DNA of 33,810 nt from a bacterium (GCA_039961635.1 JABRWB010000095.1:1-33810); one strand, 5' to 3'; shown: positions 14,025-22,511, numbered from the stretch's first letter. Notes: generated by a model not told the origin, from the letters alone. Made by a program: numbers and translations.

Positions 14025-14415
14025 GCTCGATTCGCGTATCGAATGCCGGTGGAGCATCGGGATCAGCCATTCCTCCTCTTCCCATCAATTTTGCCGAGCT
14101 TAGAATGTGCGAATGTGAGAGCCCACGGAAATCGAAGCGCCACAATATTTCAAACCGGTAATCCATATCCGAAATACCATCTTGTGAAAAATCCTGTCCT
14201 TTGGCGCTTATGCCGCGAGGCCTCCAGGTCGACGCCGCCAGCTTGCTGGCTGCTCAATACAGGTGAATTCTGTCACAAACGGTATCGGGCAATGTGGGTA
14301 ATCCGGATATCAATATACTAAGTATGAGATTACCGGTTGCTTTTTGCACAAGCTGGTTTCTCACAGGCAATCCCGTCAGCCGGTTCGAGGAGGTGTCGCC
14401 CCGACGGGGACAGAA
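14025..14415. other. Intergenic control region of the respiratory operon
   Basis: About 390 bases without a convincing gene. It holds a CRP/FNR-like palindrome at 14262-14277, a TATACT box at 14314-14319, and an inverted repeat of GGTAAT (about 14297) and ATTACC (about 14329) that encloses the TATACT. Short open frames here lack coding character and ribosome-binding sites. It should contain the promoter of the operon that starts at 14416. Confidence 0.5.
14262..14277 (+). promoter_or_regulatory. Candidate CRP/FNR-family binding site
   Basis: GGTGA, six bases (ATTCTG), TCACA. It differs from the CRP palindrome TGTGA-N6-TCACA at one position only. If the TATACT at 14314 is the -10, the site is centred near -56, compatible with activation. 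No CRP/FNR gene is in the window, so the regulator is unknown. Confidence 0.4.
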
Positions 14416-15351
14416 ATGACAGATTCTTCACGGCGAAAATTCCTGAAAACGGCGGCCGGCGCGGCCGCGGCAGCGGCAACTCCTTCCGCAGCCCTTGCCT
14501 CCAGCGGAGCAAAGGGCGCGGTAATGCCCAATTCATTCGGATGCTTGTTCGACATCACGCAGTGCGTGGGCTGCCGGAGCTGCGAGGAGGCATGCAACAT
14601 CGCGAACTCGCTCCCTGCGCCTGACAAGCCGTTCGACGATCCCACGGTTCTCGATCGGGAGCGCAGGCCTAGTTCGAAGGCATTCACAGTTGTGAACCGC
14701 TATTACCCGAATCCTCCCGACCTGCACAACGAGCTCGTTCCGACGTTCGTCAAGGTGCAATGCATGCACTGCAACAAACCTTCGTGCGTTTCGGCCTGCA
14801 TAGTGGGTGCGATGGAGAAAAAAGAAGAAGGGCCGGTTTTATATGACGCTTCCAAGTGCATCGGCTGCCGCTATTGCATGGTTGCATGCCCGTTCCAGAT
14901 TCCGGCATACGAGTATCACAACTCGCTTACGCCCGAAGTGAAGAAGTGCAACTTTTGCTTTGAAAAGTACACGAAAAACGGAGAATGGCCTGCCTGCGCG
15001 CGCGCATGCCCCCGCGAAGCCATGCTATTTGGCAAGCGCGACCAACTGCTGATTCATGCCAGGAGGCTCGTGAAAAAGCATCCCGAAAGATATTCTCCTC
15101 ATATATACGGAGAATATGAGATCGGCGGCACATCTTGGATGTATCTTGCAAACGTTGATTTTGAGAAAATCGGCTTTCAGAACCTGAAACCCGAGCCGAT
15201 TCCGCTTCTTACCGAAACACTTCAGCACGGGATTTTCAGATACTTCCTTCCTCCTCTCGCGCTGTACGCGCTTCTTGGCATCGTGATGTTTGTCAAGGGT
15301 GAAAACGGAGAGAAGGATGAAGGAGCTGATGAGGGTGGCGAAGATGAATAA
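14416..15351 (+). CDS. Tat-exported four-cluster [4Fe-4S] ferredoxin subunit (HybA/HmcB-like)
   Basis: A 311-residue protein. The N terminus has a twin-arginine signal (SSRRKFLKTAAGAAAAAA). Four Cys clusters follow, for four [4Fe-4S] centres: CVGCRSCEEAC, CMHCNKPSCVSAC, CIGCRYCMVAC, and CNFCFEK with CARAC. A C-terminal hydrophobic segment (YFLPPLALYALLGIVMFV) would anchor it, as in HybA and HmcB. It would sit on the periplasmic face and carry electrons between the cytochromes and the NrfD-type subunit encoded next. The start is ATG 14416, with GGGGA upstream. It overlaps the next gene by up to 35 bases, which indicates coupling. Confidence 0.93.
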   Translation: MTDSSRRKFLKTAAGAAAAAATPSAALASSGAKGAVMPNSFGCLFDITQCVGCRSCEEACNIANSLPAPDKPFDDPTVLDRERRPSSKAFTVVNRYYPNPPDLHNELVPTFVKVQCMHCNKPSCVSACIVGAMEKKEEGPVLYDASKCIGCRYCMVACPFQIPAYEYHNSLTPEVKKCNFCFEKYTKNGEWPACARACPREAMLFGKRDQLLIHARRLVKKHPERYSPHIYGEYEIGGTSWMYLANVDFEKIGFQNLKPEPIPLLTETLQHGIFRYFLPPLALYALLGIVMFVKGENGEKDEGADEGGEDE

Positions 15352-18300
15352 CGGGAGTTCCACTCATAAGGAGTTTGTCGAGGATGCCGCGCCCGCCCGG
15401 CGTCCGTTTTTCACGACCGGCGTTTGGGTTCTCGTCGTTCTCGCGCTTGCCGGGGCGGCTGTCGCCCTCTGGCGGTTTTTCTTCGGCATCGGCAGCATAT
15501 CCAATCTTGACGACCAGCATCCATGGGGGCTTTGGATCGGAATCGACGTCGCGACAGGAGTTGCTCTGGCCGCCGGCGGTTTCACGACCGCCGCTCTGGC
15601 GCATATTCTTCACCGACATAAATACCACGTAATAACGCGCCCCGCGCTTCTTACCGCGCTTCTTGGCTACACCTTCGTCGCCATTGGGCTGCTGGTTGAT
15701 TTGGGCCGCTATTACAACATTTGGCATCCGATAATTCCTTATTACTGGCAGGGCAATTCGGTGTTGTTTGAGGTCGGCCTTTGCGTTATGTTTTATTTGA
15801 CCGTCCTATACATCGAGTTTTTGCCCGTTGTATGCGAGCGGTTCATCGGCGCGGTCAACCTTCCCGGCGCGCTTGCGCGGCTGAATAAAGCGGTGGATTC
15901 GATGCTGCGCTCGTTCCTTTCCGGTCTGAACAAAGTGATGTGGGTGTTCGTGATTTTGGGGGTCGTGCTTTCCTGCCTGCACCAGTCTTCACTTGGCTCG
16001 CTGATGCTGATCGCCCCATACAAGCTCTCTCCGCTCTGGTATACGCCAATTTTGCCGCTTCTTTTCCTTCTTTCGGCGATTGCGACCGGGTACCCAATGG
16101 TCATTGTCGAATCCATGGTGGCGGCGCGCAGCTTCGGATTTCGCCCCGAAATGAAAGTGCTGTCCCGGCTCGCGGCCATCACGCCCTGGCTGCTTGGAAT
16201 ATATCTCGCGCTCAAGGTGGGAGACTTGTTCGTTCGCGGCGCGTGGGTGCTTTTATTCGAGCCAACGCCGGTGACTTTCTCCTTTTGGGGAGAGATCACG
16301 ATCGGCGTGATAATTCCTTTCATACTTTTTCGAATTAAGGAAGTCAGAAACGACCACGGACTGTTGTTTACCGCGGCGTTTATGGTCGTCCTCGGCGTCG
16401 CATGGAACAGGGCCAACGTATTCATGATCGGTTACAACCCTCCCCACGAAGTCAAGCAATACGTGCCGGCTCTCGGCGAATTAGCGGTGACGGTCGGGCT
16501 TATTTCGACGCTGATTCTTGTCTATCGCTTCGTCGTAAACAACTTCCCCGTGCTCGCGCGCGATCTGGTGGAGGAGGCGCGCAAATCCCCCAAATGGCGC
16601 AAGTACGGCTCGGCTGCAATGGCAATTTTGTTTTCGGTGCTCGCACCGGCGTTTTTGAATGCGCCGGCGGATGCGCAGCCCGGAGACGGCGCGTCGGTGG
16701 GCTCATACCGCGGTCCCAAAACAATCGAGATGGAAACGATGGAGCTCGACTTCCCCTATGACAAATACGAACCGGTCAAGTTCAGGCACAAGTTCCATGC
16801 TCAAATTATCAAGGACTGCTCCATTTGCCACCATTATTTCGAGCGTCACGACGATCTGGCCCGCGAAATCGGAGTATCTTGCGAGGGCTGCCATTCGGGG
16901 AAGGGCGGCCGCGCCGCGTATCGCGCTCTTTCCTGCAAAACCTGCCACAGCCCCGAATTCGGCCGCTCGAATTTCGAGCGGCCAAGCCTAAAGGGAGCAA
17001 TCCACCGTCAGTGCATAGACTGCCATATCAAGTCGGCCGCCGGCCCCGTGACGTGCCAGGAATGCCACATAAAAAATGTTCCGGATCACGCCGCATACAT
17101 ATCGGAGTACAATGGCGCCAAAACATGCGAGAAATGCCATCCGGGCAAGATCGCGGAAGTGGTGAATTCAACCCACTACACGCTGACATCGAAGATTCCA
17201 ATGGATTTCCTGTTTCTGGACGAGGATGCGACAAAGCCCGCGCCGGTTGGAAGGGCCGGAATGATCCAGCACCCCAGCCCTTATTGGATGTCAATCCCTC
17301 AACTGAACTGGTTATACGTCGTTGAAGATGATCCATCCACCCCGTACTTGGACGCGGTCGGCGGATGCGGCCAGTGCCACGCGGGTACCGGATTGATGCC
17401 GTACACGGCTTTGGGATTTGAAATTGCGCCGGAAGACGAAGTCCAGAACGTCGATTGCCTGGTATGTCATTCCAAAAGCTACGAGCGAAAATACTACGCG
17501 TCGGTGTCCGGCGGGAAGCTGGTATTGAGTCAAGGCGGACCGATCATCCGAACGATACCGGTGGTGGACGGTGTTCCCGACTATTCGGTTTACACCGATG
17601 CGGCAAAGGATATCGGCCATACTTCCGCGGCCACGTGCAATCGCTGCCATGGGGAAAAAGCCGACAAGCACAGGCTGATCGCGGGCGATTCCTACGCGTT
17701 TAAGCGCGGCGTGGGTTTCGCGCAGTCCTCGGATGTGCATGCGGCACTGGGACTCACGTGCAGCGAATGCCACTACGGAGGCGGGCACACGTATAAAAGG
17801 AAGCTATCCAGCGACCTTATGACTTATTCCAACGCCCGCTTGGAGGAAGGCTGCCTGGACTGCCACAGATTCGCGCACAACGCGGATTCGATAACGCCCA
17901 TGGTGTCCAAGGTTGCCTGCACCGCTTGCCACGCGAAAAGCACGGGGGGCATTGTTTCAATCGACTTTTCCAAAACGGTCGCCGATGGAGAAAACGGACA
18001 CAAGCCGCACACCGATGTGGCAACCGAAGTTGCATCGCCCGATTGGAATCCTGAATTCCACTGGTATGCCGCAAAAGTCAAATGGCCCGACATCCCGATA
18101 GGTTCGAAGTACGATGGGATTTTATATCCTTATAAGAAAATCACGGTCAACCTTCCCGTGGATGAGCAAGGCAACCAGATTTTCCTCAGGCACAGCGTAC
18201 TTGCCGAGGGCGGCTCGGTCGAGGATGCCATCGCCGCGGGCCACGACGATTACCACAAATATATCGCCAAATTTCACGGCAATCCGATTTCTTTTGGCCT

Positions 18301-18469
18301 GCCGCCGCTTCCCGGCCCGTTCGCGGGATTCGAAAAGCGAAGCTTCCTTTATACGTTCAGCCACGGAATTTCGGTGAACGGCGCGCGCAAGTGCGGCGAA
18401 TGCCACGGCTCAAGCGCAGCGCTGGACTGGAGCTCACTGGGAATGAGCGACCCTAATCCGCAACCGTAG
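15317..18469 (+). CDS. NrfD/HybB-type quinone-interacting membrane protein fused to a 13-haem cytochrome c
   Basis: A 1050-residue fusion. Residues 1-430 form an NrfD/HybB/HmcC membrane domain with about ten transmembrane segments and the family motif L-S-C-L-H-Q-S-S-L-G-S-L in the fifth. A further hydrophobic stretch at about 428-450 (AAMAILFSVLAPAFLNAPAD) looks like an internal signal or an eleventh span and would bring the rest to the periplasm. Residues 500-1030 carry thirteen CXXCH motifs (CSICH, CEGCH, CKTCH, CIDCH, CQECH, CEKCH, CGQCH, CLVCH, CNRCH, CSECH, CLDCH, CTACH, CGECH). It could pass electrons between the quinone pool and a periplasmic haem wire. ATG 15317 has GGAG six bases upstream; ATG 15329 and 15344 are alternatives. 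There is no frameshift at the junction. Confidence 0.92.
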   Translation: MKELMRVAKMNNGSSTHKEFVEDAAPARRPFFTTGVWVLVVLALAGAAVALWRFFFGIGSISNLDDQHPWGLWIGIDVATGVALAAGGFTTAALAHILHRHKYHVITRPALLTALLGYTFVAIGLLVDLGRYYNIWHPIIPYYWQGNSVLFEVGLCVMFYLTVLYIEFLPVVCERFIGAVNLPGALARLNKAVDSMLRSFLSGLNKVMWVFVILGVVLSCLHQSSLGSLMLIAPYKLSPLWYTPILPLLFLLSAIATGYPMVIVESMVAARSFGFRPEMKVLSRLAAITPWLLGIYLALKVGDLFVRGAWVLLFEPTPVTFSFWGEITIGVIIPFILFRIKEVRNDHGLLFTAAFMVVLGVAWNRANVFMIGYNPPHEVKQYVPALGELAVTVGLISTLILVYRFVVNNFPVLARDLVEEARKSPKWRKYGSAAMAILFSVLAPAFLNAPADAQPGDGASVGSYRGPKTIEMETMELDFPYDKYEPVKFRHKFHAQIIKDCSICHHYFERHDDLAREIGVSCEGCHSGKGGRAAYRALSCKTCHSPEFGRSNFERPSLKGAIHRQCIDCHIKSAAGPVTCQECHIKNVPDHAAYISEYNGAKTCEKCHPGKIAEVVNSTHYTLTSKIPMDFLFLDEDATKPAPVGRAGMIQHPSPYWMSIPQLNWLYVVEDDPSTPYLDAVGGCGQCHAGTGLMPYTALGFEIAPEDEVQNVDCLVCHSKSYERKYYASVSGGKLVLSQGGPIIRTIPVVDGVPDYSVYTDAAKDIGHTSAATCNRCHGEKADKHRLIAGDSYAFKRGVGFAQSSDVHAALGLTCSECHYGGGHTYKRKLSSDLMTYSNARLEEGCLDCHRFAHNADSITPMVSKVACTACHAKSTGGIVSIDFSKTVADGENGHKPHTDVATEVASPDWNPEFHWYAAKVKWPDIPIGSKYDGILYPYKKITVNLPVDEQGNQIFLRHSVLAEGGSVEDAIAAGHDDYHKYIAKFHGNPISFGLPPLPGPFAGFEKRSFLYTFSHGISVNGARKCGECHGSSAALDWSSLGMSDPNPQP

Positions 18470-18595: not shown

Positions 18596-19954
18596 ATGGT
18601 TGAAACGAAACGGAAGAATCATTTCCAACTTGGAAAGCGCCTGCTTAAGTACGCCGGCATCGCGTTGCTGGCGCTGATCGTTTTTACGACGGCGGGCGTC
18701 GAATACTCGCACAAACCCAGCTTTTGCAGAAGCTGTCACATAATGGAGCCATATTACAAGGCCTGGCAGGACAGCTCGCACAGGAACGTCGCCTGCGTGG
18801 ACTGCCATTTCGAGCCTGGTTGGCGAAACGAGCTGACGGGCAAGTTCCAGGCTCTAACACAGCTTGTCACCTATCTTAACGGCACATACGGCACCAACCC
18901 GTCCGCGCAGGTAAAGGACGGAAGCTGCCTGCGCAGCGGTTGCCATGAAACCCGGTTGATCGAGGGACCGATCGAGTTCAAGCGCGGAATCAAATTCGAC
19001 CACGCGGCGCATCTGAATAAGCCGGTGCGCGGAATCACCCTCAAATGCACCTCGTGCCACAGCCAGATCGTTCAGGGCAACCACATGTCGGTGACCGAAA
19101 CGGTCTGCTTCACCTGCCACTTCAAAGGCAACGTGAGCGAAACAAAGGTGCGCGACCAAAAATTCTGCACCTTTTGCCACAATCCGCCCGAAGGCCCGAT
19201 TAAAGTGGGTGACCAGGAATATCGTCACGATTATTACGTATCAATCGGAGTTGCCTGTCAGCGCTGCCACCAGGACGTGATCCGGGGCGAAGGCGAAGTG
19301 AGCTTGTCGCGTTGCATCCAATGCCATCCCGAAGAGGACAAGATGGGCAAGCGCCATGATTTCGAGTTCATGCACAACAAGCATGTAACCGAAGTCAAGA
19401 TAGAATGCTTCGACTGCCACGACGACATCAAGCACCACCTGCCTGAAAAGGGAAGTCCTCCCGTAACGAGTTGCAAGGTTTGCCACGAAGCGACCCACGA
19501 CGCGCCAACCAAGCTCTACCTGGGAATCGGCGGCAAAGGGATGGACAAGCCGATGCCCGCGCCGATGTACGTGTCGCAGGTGGACTGCATCGGTTGCCAC
19601 ACCGAGGAGGCCCGCTTTGTCAAAGGCACGCATCCTGTTACCTCCAAGGCGAGCATCGCTTCCTGCGTGACGTGCCATCCATCCGGAGGGAAGGAAGCTT
19701 ACGACAACTGGCGCAAGGCGATTCCTTCCATGCTCGCAAAGGTCGAAACCAGGATGCCCAAGGCGGAAGCACGGCTGAAGGCGATTCCGGACACCGACCC
19801 GAAGCGGGCCGAGTTGGATGCCAAGGTTGCGGACGCGAAGTACAACTATGACTTGGTGGTGAACGGGGACGCGATTCACAACATCCGGTATGCCGAAGCG
19901 TTGATGGACAAAAGCGCCGAGATGCTGGACGAAGTGATCAACTACAAGCCATAG
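18596..19954 (+). CDS. NapC/NirT-like 12-haem membrane-anchored cytochrome c
   Basis: A 452-residue protein. A membrane anchor at about residues 17-35 (YAGIALLALIVFTTAGVEY) is followed by a NapC/NirT/NrfH-type start: CRSCH-I-M-E-P-Y-Y-K-A-W, then S-S-H-R-N-V-A-C-V-D-C-H. Twelve haem motifs are seen in all, eleven CXXCH and one CX4CH (CLRSGCH, third in order). The last 80 residues lack haems and are probably helical, rich in Ala, Lys and Glu. Family members oxidise quinol and pass electrons to periplasmic partners. It is the last gene of the plus-strand operon and converges on the 8-haem lipoprotein gene with 17 bases between stops. Confidence 0.92.
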   Translation: MVETKRKNHFQLGKRLLKYAGIALLALIVFTTAGVEYSHKPSFCRSCHIMEPYYKAWQDSSHRNVACVDCHFEPGWRNELTGKFQALTQLVTYLNGTYGTNPSAQVKDGSCLRSGCHETRLIEGPIEFKRGIKFDHAAHLNKPVRGITLKCTSCHSQIVQGNHMSVTETVCFTCHFKGNVSETKVRDQKFCTFCHNPPEGPIKVGDQEYRHDYYVSIGVACQRCHQDVIRGEGEVSLSRCIQCHPEEDKMGKRHDFEFMHNKHVTEVKIECFDCHDDIKHHLPEKGSPPVTSCKVCHEATHDAPTKLYLGIGGKGMDKPMPAPMYVSQVDCIGCHTEEARFVKGTHPVTSKASIASCVTCHPSGGKEAYDNWRKAIPSMLAKVETRMPKAEARLKAIPDTDPKRAELDAKVADAKYNYDLVVNGDAIHNIRYAEALMDKSAEMLDEVINYKP

Positions 19955-19971: not shown

Positions 19972-20652
19972 CTATTCGAACCGTATGCTGCGTTGCGCGT
20001 GGCAACTCATGCAAGGCTGCTGGCCGTGACACATCGTGCACCGCGCCGGATCGCCAAGCACCTGCGAAGGATGGATGCGCAGGTAATCATCGGGGTGGGG
20101 CATCTGTAATCCATGGCAGTCTATGCAGAAGCGGGTCTGGCCGTGGCATTCCGAACAGCTTTTCAAGTCTCCGCCCGTTTTGCCGTGCATGTTTATGAAT
20201 CCCTCGACCTTGTGGCTTTCGGGCTTCAATATCTGAACGTCTTTGTGGCAGGTCTTGCACGAAACAGGGATATTCCTGTCGGCGTGGCAGGCGATGCAGT
20301 CTTCTTTGACGGGCGTATATACGAGAGCGCCGTCGTTTCGATGGCAGGTGTGACAGACGATGCCTTGCGCGAAGTGCTTCTGATGGCTGAAAATCAGGTT
20401 AGGATCTTCGGTCAGAAGCGCGCCTTTGGGGTGACAGGTCCAACAGAGGTTAACGTCTTCCGCCAAATGTGCCGCCGCGAGGACAGGCGCCTTCGAAGAT
20501 TCGAAAATCCTCTTTTCCACTTGTTTGGGCGAAAATTCGGGCTTCGGCGTAACAAACAGCGAGCGCTCCTCTTCCTTGATTTTCACGCAGCCGAACAAAG
20601 TCAAAGCCGCCGCCAAAATGAGAACCGCTGCAATCGCGTTCCGGTTATTCAT
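19972..20652 (-). CDS. 8-haem cytochrome c lipoprotein
   Basis: A 226-residue protein. The N terminus is a lipoprotein signal ending in a lipobox (LTLFGC), so the mature protein starts at a lipidated Cys. Eight CXXCH motifs follow: CWTCH, CHTCH, CIACH, CKTCH, CSECH, CIDCH, CTMCH, CMSCH. Additional His residues spaced between them can serve as distal ligands. The anchor may be in the inner or outer membrane; there is no Asp at +2. It is the last gene of the minus-strand operon and overlaps the b561 gene by eight bases, with GGAGG six bases before ATG 20652. Confidence 0.92.
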   Translation of the reverse strand: MNNRNAIAAVLILAAALTLFGCVKIKEEERSLFVTPKPEFSPKQVEKRIFESSKAPVLAAAHLAEDVNLCWTCHPKGALLTEDPNLIFSHQKHFAQGIVCHTCHRNDGALVYTPVKEDCIACHADRNIPVSCKTCHKDVQILKPESHKVEGFINMHGKTGGDLKSCSECHGQTRFCIDCHGLQMPHPDDYLRIHPSQVLGDPARCTMCHGQQPCMSCHAQRSIRFE

Positions 20653-21562
20653 CAGCAGCCTCCTGTTGCGGCCCGCTGGAAGGTGCAGCCTGGTCACGGT
20701 TTTCGACACCGCCGCTTGCCAGATACGCGCGCCAGGCGGTTTCAAGCTCGTGCAGCTCGTCCGCGTGATGGTGCTCCATGGATTCGCGGTCCTCGATTCC
20801 GGTCAGCCACACCGGATTTTGCGGAAAGACCGCCGGGTGGAGATGAACGTTGAACAGGTGCCAGATGACGATCGCGAGCGCGGCCAACAGCGCTTCGTAG
20901 TCATGCAAAAGGACGCTCGCAGGAAAAGTCCACTCGGGAAGGTAATGCTGTGCGAAGACCGGAAACCACAAAACCAGTCCGGTCAGAATCATCACTGAAT
21001 TGCCCCAGACGACCGCCCAGTATTCGAATTTCTCGATGTAATTGTAGCGGGCGAATTTGGGTCGTTTTTTCAATCCTATAAAGAACAACATGTTGTCCCA
21101 GACGTCTTTGAAGTCGCGGCCCTTCGGAAGCATTTCCGTCGATCGCTTGCCCTTCCAGAATTCGTATGCGAGAAAGACGACATGGTAAATTGAAACGGCG
21201 ATAAGCAGAACGCCGCAGAAGCGGTGAAGTATTCCCGCTCCCTTGACTCCGCCCATAAAGAACATAAGAACTTTGCTTGCGGGCGACTCGGCGAATTTGA
21301 GCGGCCATCCTGTCAGTACCAGCCCGCCGAATCCGAACATGAGCAGGAAATGCTGCAAGCGGTGGTGGTAATTCCAACGCTTGTACCAGACCAGCCGGCC
21401 ATCGCCGTCGAAACGAGCATGTTCGAGCTTCGGATTAACCTTTCCGGGTCTGCCCAATTCCCGCACGAGCTCCCGGTATCGCTCGTCAAGCGCGCGACTT
21501 GCAGCCCGCCTCTCGGCTTTTCTGCGGTCGGTCCGCGACCTTCTCTCGGGTTCGCTAGCCAT
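20645..21562 (-). CDS. b561-type di-haem cytochrome b (FdnI/HydC-like)
   Basis: A 305-residue protein. After a charged, Arg-rich N-terminal region of about 60 residues come four main membrane segments. They contain the His pattern of formate dehydrogenase gamma and hydrogenase b subunits: R-W-N-Y-H-H-R-L-Q-H-F-L-L, H-R-F-C-G-V-L-L-I-A-V-S-I-Y-H-V, H-D-Y-E-A-L-L-A and I-W-H-L-F-N-V-H. These His residues would ligate two b haems and link the cytochromes to the quinone pool. The start is ATG 21562 with GGGGAGGAG upstream; it overlaps the 7-haem gene by eight bases. The long basic N terminus is unusual and would be cytoplasmic. Confidence 0.9.
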   Translation of the reverse strand: MASEPERRSRTDRRKAERRAASRALDERYRELVRELGRPGKVNPKLEHARFDGDGRLVWYKRWNYHHRLQHFLLMFGFGGLVLTGWPLKFAESPASKVLMFFMGGVKGAGILHRFCGVLLIAVSIYHVVFLAYEFWKGKRSTEMLPKGRDFKDVWDNMLFFIGLKKRPKFARYNYIEKFEYWAVVWGNSVMILTGLVLWFPVFAQHYLPEWTFPASVLLHDYEALLAALAIVIWHLFNVHLHPAVFPQNPVWLTGIEDRESMEHHHADELHELETAWRAYLASGGVENRDQAAPSSGPQQEAADE

Positions 21563-22511
21563 GACTCCTCCCCGAGATGAAATGTCTGATGAAATCCAAA
21601 AGCATATGGAACAAAAACGCGCCCATCGAAGCGAGAATCAACCAAAGGTATACTTTTTCAACGATCAGCAAAACCCGCTTCCAGGACTTTTCCTCTTCCC
21701 TGTGGCTGAACGCCTGCGCGAATCCGTACGACGCGCCGATATGGCATTTGCCGCACGTGCCCGAAAGATTTCGATCGTTCACCTGGCTGCGCGGGTCGTT
21801 TTTGGCGTAGATGTCGTGCACGCCGTGGCAGGACGAGCAGACCGCGACGGACTCGAGGCTTCCAAGCTCCTGCTTCTTGCCGTGGAAGCTCTCCTGGTAG
21901 CTTTCCATGGGGTTTTTCAGCCCGAACTTGTCCACGATCGCGGTTTCGCTATGGCACTCGGTGCAGGTGAAAGGCTGATTGTGCAGATTGACGGGCGAAT
22001 CGGGTGCGTCAACCTTCACAATGTAATGGTTGCCGTGGCAGTCGATGCAGTCGGCGGCAAGAGTATTGCCGCGCTCCAGGATGTCGGTTCCGTGGATTGA
22101 GCCGCTCCACTGCTCGGCTACCGCGGTGTGGCAACTCGCGCATGCGGCCGCGGCTTCCGGATCTCCGGGGCGCTTTTGCGCGAGCCGCTCGAAGCCGGGA
22201 GGCGCCTTCGTTTTACCGTGATGGCCGCCCTTCATGGAGATGTGGCAGGCCGTGCAACCCAGATCGCCGTGAACGGATTTCTCGAATTCGGTTTTGTCAA
22301 CGAACAGCCAGCGCCGTCCGCCGCCCGGCAGCTCCAGATAAAGCTTCGTGTCCATGTGACACGGCGCGCAGCCTTGCCCGCCGGTCATGTCGCCCGTGAC
22401 ATAGGACGGCTGCGTTTTTGCAGGTTCGGTTTTGGGATCGTCAGAGGATTGCGCGGCCGCGGCGCCTGCTGAAAGCAGCAATATCAACAAGGCGATAGGG
22501 AAGCGCATCAT
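21555..22511 (-). CDS. 7-haem cytochrome c with C-terminal membrane anchor
   Basis: A 318-residue protein. A signal peptide (MMRFPIALLILLLSAGAAAA, then Q-S-S) precedes seven CXXCH motifs: CAPCH, CTACH, CASCH, CIDCH, CTECH, CSSCH, CGKCH. A hydrophobic segment near the C terminus (VYLWLILASMGAFLFHMLLD) anchors it. The repeated S-V/I-H-G and F-H-G-K elements before the haems are like those of periplasmic multihaem reductase partners. It is likely to take electrons from or give them to the cytochrome b encoded next. Two adjacent ATG codons (22511, 22508) follow GAGGA; 22508 is better spaced. The start overlaps the stop of the upstream small gene. Confidence 0.92.
   Translation of the reverse strand: MMRFPIALLILLLSAGAAAAQSSDDPKTEPAKTQPSYVTGDMTGGQGCAPCHMDTKLYLELPGGGRRWLFVDKTEFEKSVHGDLGCTACHISMKGGHHGKTKAPPGFERLAQKRPGDPEAAAACASCHTAVAEQWSGSIHGTDILERGNTLAADCIDCHGNHYIVKVDAPDSPVNLHNQPFTCTECHSETAIVDKFGLKNPMESYQESFHGKKQELGSLESVAVCSSCHGVHDIYAKNDPRSQVNDRNLSGTCGKCHIGASYGFAQAFSHREEEKSWKRVLLIVEKVYLWLILASMGAFLFHMLLDFIRHFISGRSHG

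Follow-up and report, generated by a model that had tools for sequence, protein, structure and literature searches.

One reading frame for a HybB/HmcC-type NrfD domain and a thirteen-haem cytochrome, a putative subunit of an Hmc/Nrf-like menaquinol dehydrogenase

We analysed a stretch of 33,810 nucleotides from a bacterium (GCA_039961635.1 JABRWB010000095.1:1-33810; hereafter the window), in which one gene joins an NrfD-type membrane domain to a multihaem cytochrome c (Table 1). The gene is a single open frame of 1050 amino acids (aa) from the ATG at 15317, with alternative ATG starts at 15329 and 15344, and the frame is stop-free from 15290 through 18469. Ten membrane helices were located at residues 34-409 by hydropathy and by an AlphaFold model of high confidence in that part, and both place an eleventh hydrophobic segment at residues 433-451. 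The motif LHQSSLGSL lies at residues 221-229, and thirteen CXXCH motifs begin at residues 501, 522, 540, 566, 580, 604, 684, 714, 774, 815, 846, 868 and 1026. The first-pass annotation of this DNA had described such an uninterrupted frame, with about ten NrfD/HybB helices, LHQSSLGSL and thirteen CXXCH, and the frame, hydropathy, model and motif counts bear it out. The domain matches, which are far beyond chance, likewise agree with its order of NrfD first and haems second. Its single 13-haem cytochrome, however, holds only as a count of motifs: according to the domain matches, the haem part is composed of two modules, a five-haem module of the cytochrome c7/c3 type and then an eight-haem module of the octahaem tetrathionate reductase (OTR) superfamily.

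Table 1 Features of the fusion gene and its flanking genes in the window.
Feature	Position	Strand	Basis
Iron-sulfur (Fe-S) subunit, HmcB/HybA-like	14416..15351	+	HmcB 1e-100, HybA 263.3 bits, Pfam TAT_signal + Fer4_11
Fusion gene, HybB/HmcC-type NrfD + 13-haem cytochrome	15317..18469	+	1050 aa; open frame, CXXCH count, domain matches
NrfD domain, residues 24-414, ten predicted membrane helices	15386..16558	+	PF03916 1e-23; NF008133 8e-106; confident AlphaFold model
Signal-peptide-like stretch (residues 424-453, SPKWRKYGSAAMAILFSVLAPAFLNAPADA) that signal peptidase may cut after Ala453	16586..16675	+	Hydropathy, AxA site
Trp427 codon TGG, at the site of the sister-genus NrfD TGA stop	16595..16597	+	Junction alignment with G001
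Five-haem module, residues 471-590, cytochrome c7/c3 type	16727..17086	+	Cytochrome_C7 6e-19; HmcA/TmcA models; solved cytochromes
Octahaem module, residues 591-1050, homologous to OTR	17087..18466	+	TIGR04315 2e-17; full-length alignments; 1SP3 matches
Met649, at the position of OTR haem II ligand Lys56	17261..17263	+	Alignment A3, PMC3769277 numbering, 1SP3 alignment
Met862, His in 13/16 octahaem homologues	17900..17902	+	Alignment A3
Next gene, 11-haem cytochrome, NrfH/NapC-like N-terminal membrane anchor	18596..19954	+	TIGR03153 NrfH 1e-16, Cytochrom_NNT 6e-13

The NrfD half exceeds the curated cut-off of PF03916 (84.7 bits against 25.8). Its matches to the HybB model NF008133 (354.6 bits) and the HmcC model NF045714 (1e-81, 275 bits) are below the respective cut-offs of 450 and 550, and the OTR family model TIGR04315 gives 63.5 bits against a cut-off of 375. 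By curated cut-offs, the fusion protein is thus neither HmcC, HybB nor OTR. The closest solved folds to the NrfD part of the model are ActC of alternative complex III and PsrC. The full-length model is usable for NrfD only, because the underlying alignment had placed cytochrome rows on NrfD.

The five-haem module has 3.36 kDa per haem. Besides Cytochrome_C7, it matches parts of HmcA, TmcA and the nine-haem cytochrome, as well as solved 16-haem and 9-haem cytochromes. The octahaem module, with eight CXXCH and 6.84 kDa per haem, aligns end to end with OTR (PDB 1SP3) and keeps all eight motifs in the OTR arrangement. A profile made from four OTR-free sequences ranked 1SP3 first (1e-17). Foldseek with a model of the cytochrome part also gave 1SP3 as the only good match, for a low-confidence model whose alignment included OTRs.

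In a sister genus (G001), the same two proteins are encoded by separate genes that overlap as ATGA. The NrfD frame there (426 aa, 70-71% identical to the window NrfD) ends in a TGA that overlaps the ATG of the cytochrome frame (640 aa, 13 haems, 54% identical). At the corresponding site the window reads TGG, in an alignment of AAATGGCGCA (window) with AAATGACGCA (G001) that is a short match judged by eye. The window consensus might accordingly conceal a stop or frameshift, with two separate genes in reality, as in G001: the closest relative has its gene boundary at this very place, TGG is one base away from TGA, and a single assembly is behind the sequence. The surrounding sequence argues otherwise. 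Between 16600 and 16720, where the first-pass annotation had asked for such a stop or frameshift to be sought, the assembled fusion frame is stop-free. In the other two frames the nearest stops past the NrfD end are at 16656 and 16759, so that a hidden one-base indel would extend NrfD into or beyond the cytochrome signal peptide. A one-base indel error is therefore unsupported as the source of the fusion, and an artefact would need a substitution error. Moreover, the cytochrome frame has a single ATG nearby (16619), which lacks a Shine-Dalgarno sequence at the normal distance, GGAGGAGG at 16570 being far upstream, and independent NrfD-multihaem fusions occur elsewhere. We consider an artefact improbable.

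The two halves of the frame are connected by residues 424-453 (SPKWRKYGSAAMAILFSVLAPAFLNAPADA), followed by Gln. With a basic start, a short hydrophobic core and a site that reads ADA (AxA type), this segment looks like an intact signal peptide, as predicted from hydropathy and the AxA site. Most other fusions reach a higher best 19-residue hydropathy mean (about 1.9-2.5) than this segment (1.72). In G001 and in a further split relative (G254), the separate cytochrome has an N-terminal signal sequence at the equivalent place. NrfD proteins of the HybB type are expected to end on the cytoplasmic side. If the window NrfD does so, residues 424-453, cut or uncut, would place the haem part in the periplasm. 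The frame may be translated whole and cut by signal peptidase after Ala453 into two proteins, NrfD and a 13-haem cytochrome; the basic start, short core and AxA site before Gln all speak for this. Such processing bears on the mature protein and is compatible with either of the roles discussed below. However, other, older fusions also retain a segment at this place, some without a good site, which makes an uncut anchor possible, and our literature search did not confirm the precedent of fbcH, the cytochrome b/c1 precursor that is cut. We place cleavage only slightly short of an even chance; a whole and a cut chain are about equally likely, and a covalent 1:1 unit is possible. The first-pass proposal of an enforced 1:1 stoichiometry with direct covalent electron transfer is consequently unsupported: what lies between the halves looks like an intact signal peptide, with an AxA site that could be cut.

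Among 385 sampled genomes searched, 62 gave a match, mostly to NrfD of the window type. The gene order Fe-S, NrfD, multihaem cytochrome was found in nearly all relatives. G254 encodes a 560-aa, 13-haem homologue as a separate neighbouring gene, and in most of the remaining relatives the Fe-S and NrfD genes are next to one for a cytochrome that is shorter or of another kind. At the loci examined, NrfD and at least three haem motifs shared one frame in eleven other cases from eleven other genomes (L010, L058, L060, L098-L103, L106 and L107). Eight of them form a clade and have 5-6 haems each, two have 3 haems, and the last, from a Deltaproteobacteria metagenome-assembled genome (L010), has 11. 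In a tree of 40 NrfD domains, 12 of them fused, the distribution of the fused state cannot be explained by fewer than four changes, each of them required by well-supported branches; the tree was made by a quick method, and this count cannot separate gain from loss. On this tree the other fusions form at least three further independent groups besides the window. The eleven loci and the tree rule out that the NrfD-multihaem fusion is unique. The first-pass view that no protein of this architecture had been described is therefore right in one respect and wrong in another: neither Pfam nor NCBIfam has a model of the joined form (window and five other fusions tested), and our literature search found no paper naming an NrfD-multihaem fusion, but the architecture recurs in eleven other genomes. 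Only the octahaem-containing 13-haem make-up is particular to the window among the fusions found. The clade of eight (L058, L099, L060, L098, L100, L101, L102 and L103) is well supported on the NrfD tree, has a class III-type cytochrome as its haem part, spans several genome families without a named model and may deserve a family of its own.

Other joints are fused in related loci. Fe-S and NrfD form a single frame of 724-732 aa at L095:11071-13266 (-) and L096:7374-9545 (-). In genome G152, homologues of the b-type cytochrome and the 7-haem protein that the window encodes at 19972-22500 (-) are fused in one frame, with 11 and 19 haems, at L095:13208-15382 (-) and L095:15241-18000 (-). These adjoin the Fe-S/NrfD fusion, so that several joints of one gene neighbourhood are fused. 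In a genome of the same class as the window's, a 545-aa putative lipoprotein with 23 CXXCH (L065:4614-6248, -) is directly beside a HybB-type NrfD.

Directly upstream of the fused NrfD-multihaem gene, the window encodes an Fe-S protein of the HmcB/HybA/NrfC type, which together give the gene set of Hmc/Nrf-like quinol dehydrogenases. The start of this gene was chosen as ATG 14416, in a frame that opens at 14344. Its product has a Tat (twin-arginine translocation)-type signal (SRRKFLK) and a C-terminal hydrophobic segment, and scores below the HmcB cut-off (337 bits, 420 required) and at that of HybA (263). The 11-haem NrfH-like cytochrome that follows the fusion gene is a likely partner of the fusion protein. 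Genes for a second cytochrome module of the quinone type lie at 19972-22500 (-), convergent with the fusion gene; they encode a 7-haem cytochrome with a C-terminal helix, a b-type cytochrome (PF01292) and an 8-haem putative lipoprotein (LFGC). The genome further encodes a menaquinone-pathway protein, an NrfA-type protein and a haem-copper oxidase. A second Fe-S/HybB-type NrfD pair is at L066:5834-8199 (+) on contig C1 of the window's genome (G000), with no multihaem gene seen beside it. A search for MtrB/PioB porins gave no matches, and its controls were equally silent.

The active-site region of the octahaem module bears on its function. In OTR, the CXXCH at 74-78 and Lys56 provide the ligands of haem II (PMC3769277). 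This numbering agrees with the 1SP3 alignment, in which Lys56 is the earlier of the two lysines in GKKN, beside a glycine that is invariant in our alignment A3 of 16 octahaem homologues. A conserved lysine after haem 3 (YERK in the window) was dropped as a candidate for the ligand, as PMC3769277 gives the GKKN lysine. At the Lys56 position, the window has Met649, and its two nearest homologues have Phe (G001) and Met (G254). In alignment A3, Met is also found there in other octahaem homologues, and Lys is kept in the OTRs, in L121, L114 and L127 and in the lone octahaem protein of G152 (L095). A cysteine a few residues beyond is absent in the window, G001 and G254. At the position of Met862, which precedes the first Cys of octahaem motif 7 by six residues, the same three sequences have Met and the other 13 rows His. 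The OTR-type active site thus looks lost, and the subfamily of the window, G001 and G254 most likely conducts electrons rather than catalyses, because the active-site lysine is replaced; other chemistry is possible.

Related operons have three genes, for an Fe-S protein, a HybB/HmcC-type NrfD and a secreted multihaem cytochrome, and as read from the sequence the last two are one frame here. In our preferred interpretation, to which we assign a probability of about 0.5, the fusion protein is the membrane-and-cytochrome subunit of an Hmc/Nrf-like Fe-S/NrfD/multihaem menaquinol dehydrogenase (menaquinol-to-multihaem oxidoreductase). Menaquinol would be oxidised by the NrfD part, and the Fe-S subunit would hand the electrons on to the five haems beside the membrane. 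From there we infer a flow through the octahaem module, which would serve electron transfer after losing the lysine, and on to further multihaem proteins of the periplasm, for example the NrfH-like one with 11 haems. The menaquinol role is plausible because the Fe-S gene adjoins and the genome has a menaquinone-pathway gene. The quinone-to-haem module of the first-pass annotation is therefore tenable as a role, but as a single chain it is unproven given the putative cut site. Several points weigh against our interpretation: electrons may run in reverse, towards quinone reduction as in Qrc; the octahaem module is nearer in kDa per haem to the catalytic than to the electron-transfer class of PMC7096707; and the cytochrome part was modelled with low confidence (mean predicted local distance difference test score, pLDDT, 59.9).

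The protein could instead be a quinol-dependent terminal reductase with NrfD, a five-haem relay and a still catalytic octahaem module on one chain, working in the NrfD-NrfC-NrfB-NrfA manner on a substrate other than tetrathionate. The full-length alignment with a characterised reductase and the retention of all eight CXXCH are consistent with this, as are the kDa per haem (6.1 in OTR) and the several substrates that members of the OTR superfamily are reported to reduce. The replaced Lys56, the missing cysteine, the low OTR score and the separate NrfA-type gene in the genome make it unlikely. It is very doubtful that a single uncut chain oxidises quinol, relays electrons over five haems and still reduces a substrate (not tetrathionate) at its octahaem module; if it does, nearly a whole respiratory reductase would reside in one protein.

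As a menaquinol dehydrogenase, the proposed complex would most resemble systems built from separate proteins. The Hmc system of sulfate reducers (HmcA/HmcB/HmcC) likewise co-encodes an Fe-S protein, a ten-helix HmcC/HybB-type NrfD and a multihaem protein with c3-type haem groups. It differs in its separate proteins, its 16-haem HmcA and the lack of an OTR-type module, and the window proteins score under the HmcB and HmcC cut-offs. In Geobacter CbcL, a quinone-reactive membrane domain and a multihaem cytochrome are on one chain as in the window, but the membrane domain is of the dihaem b type instead of NrfD. The Nrf system (NrfA/B/C/D) also has a quinol dehydrogenase (NrfCD), a pentahaem relay (NrfB) and a larger multihaem protein (PMC12285233); its four proteins are separate, NrfA is of a different family, and the window octahaem module has no recognised active site. 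Fe-S/NrfD/multihaem complexes of MBNT15, Melioribacter and Methanoperedenaceae comprise the same kinds of genes. In the accessible parts of the reports, those of MBNT15 are proposed to be quinol:acceptor reductases (PMC9386147) and those of Methanoperedenaceae menaquinone:cytochrome c oxidoreductases (PMC7327174); these parts describe separate subunits and mention no fusion.

NrfD usually passes electrons to separate cytochromes, and NrfD-cytochrome pairings are seldom known. A natural fusion identifies the partner of NrfD and offers one chain for structural work, and the fused window with the split sister genus, which has the same proteins, provides a clean before-and-after case. The recurrent fusions suggest that the NrfD-cytochrome contact is real and lasting. 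Compared with OTR, to which it is homologous over the full length with eight CXXCH, the window octahaem module has lost the lysine and the cysteine and has Met for His before haem 7, which suggests a catalytic fold turned conductor. The other fusions share with the window NrfD, a further hydrophobic segment and C-terminal haems in one frame; they have 3 to 11 haems, lack the octahaem module and are independent on the NrfD tree. Because such joins arose several times, the window fusion is best regarded as a new version of a known electron-transfer complex, not a new kind of machine.

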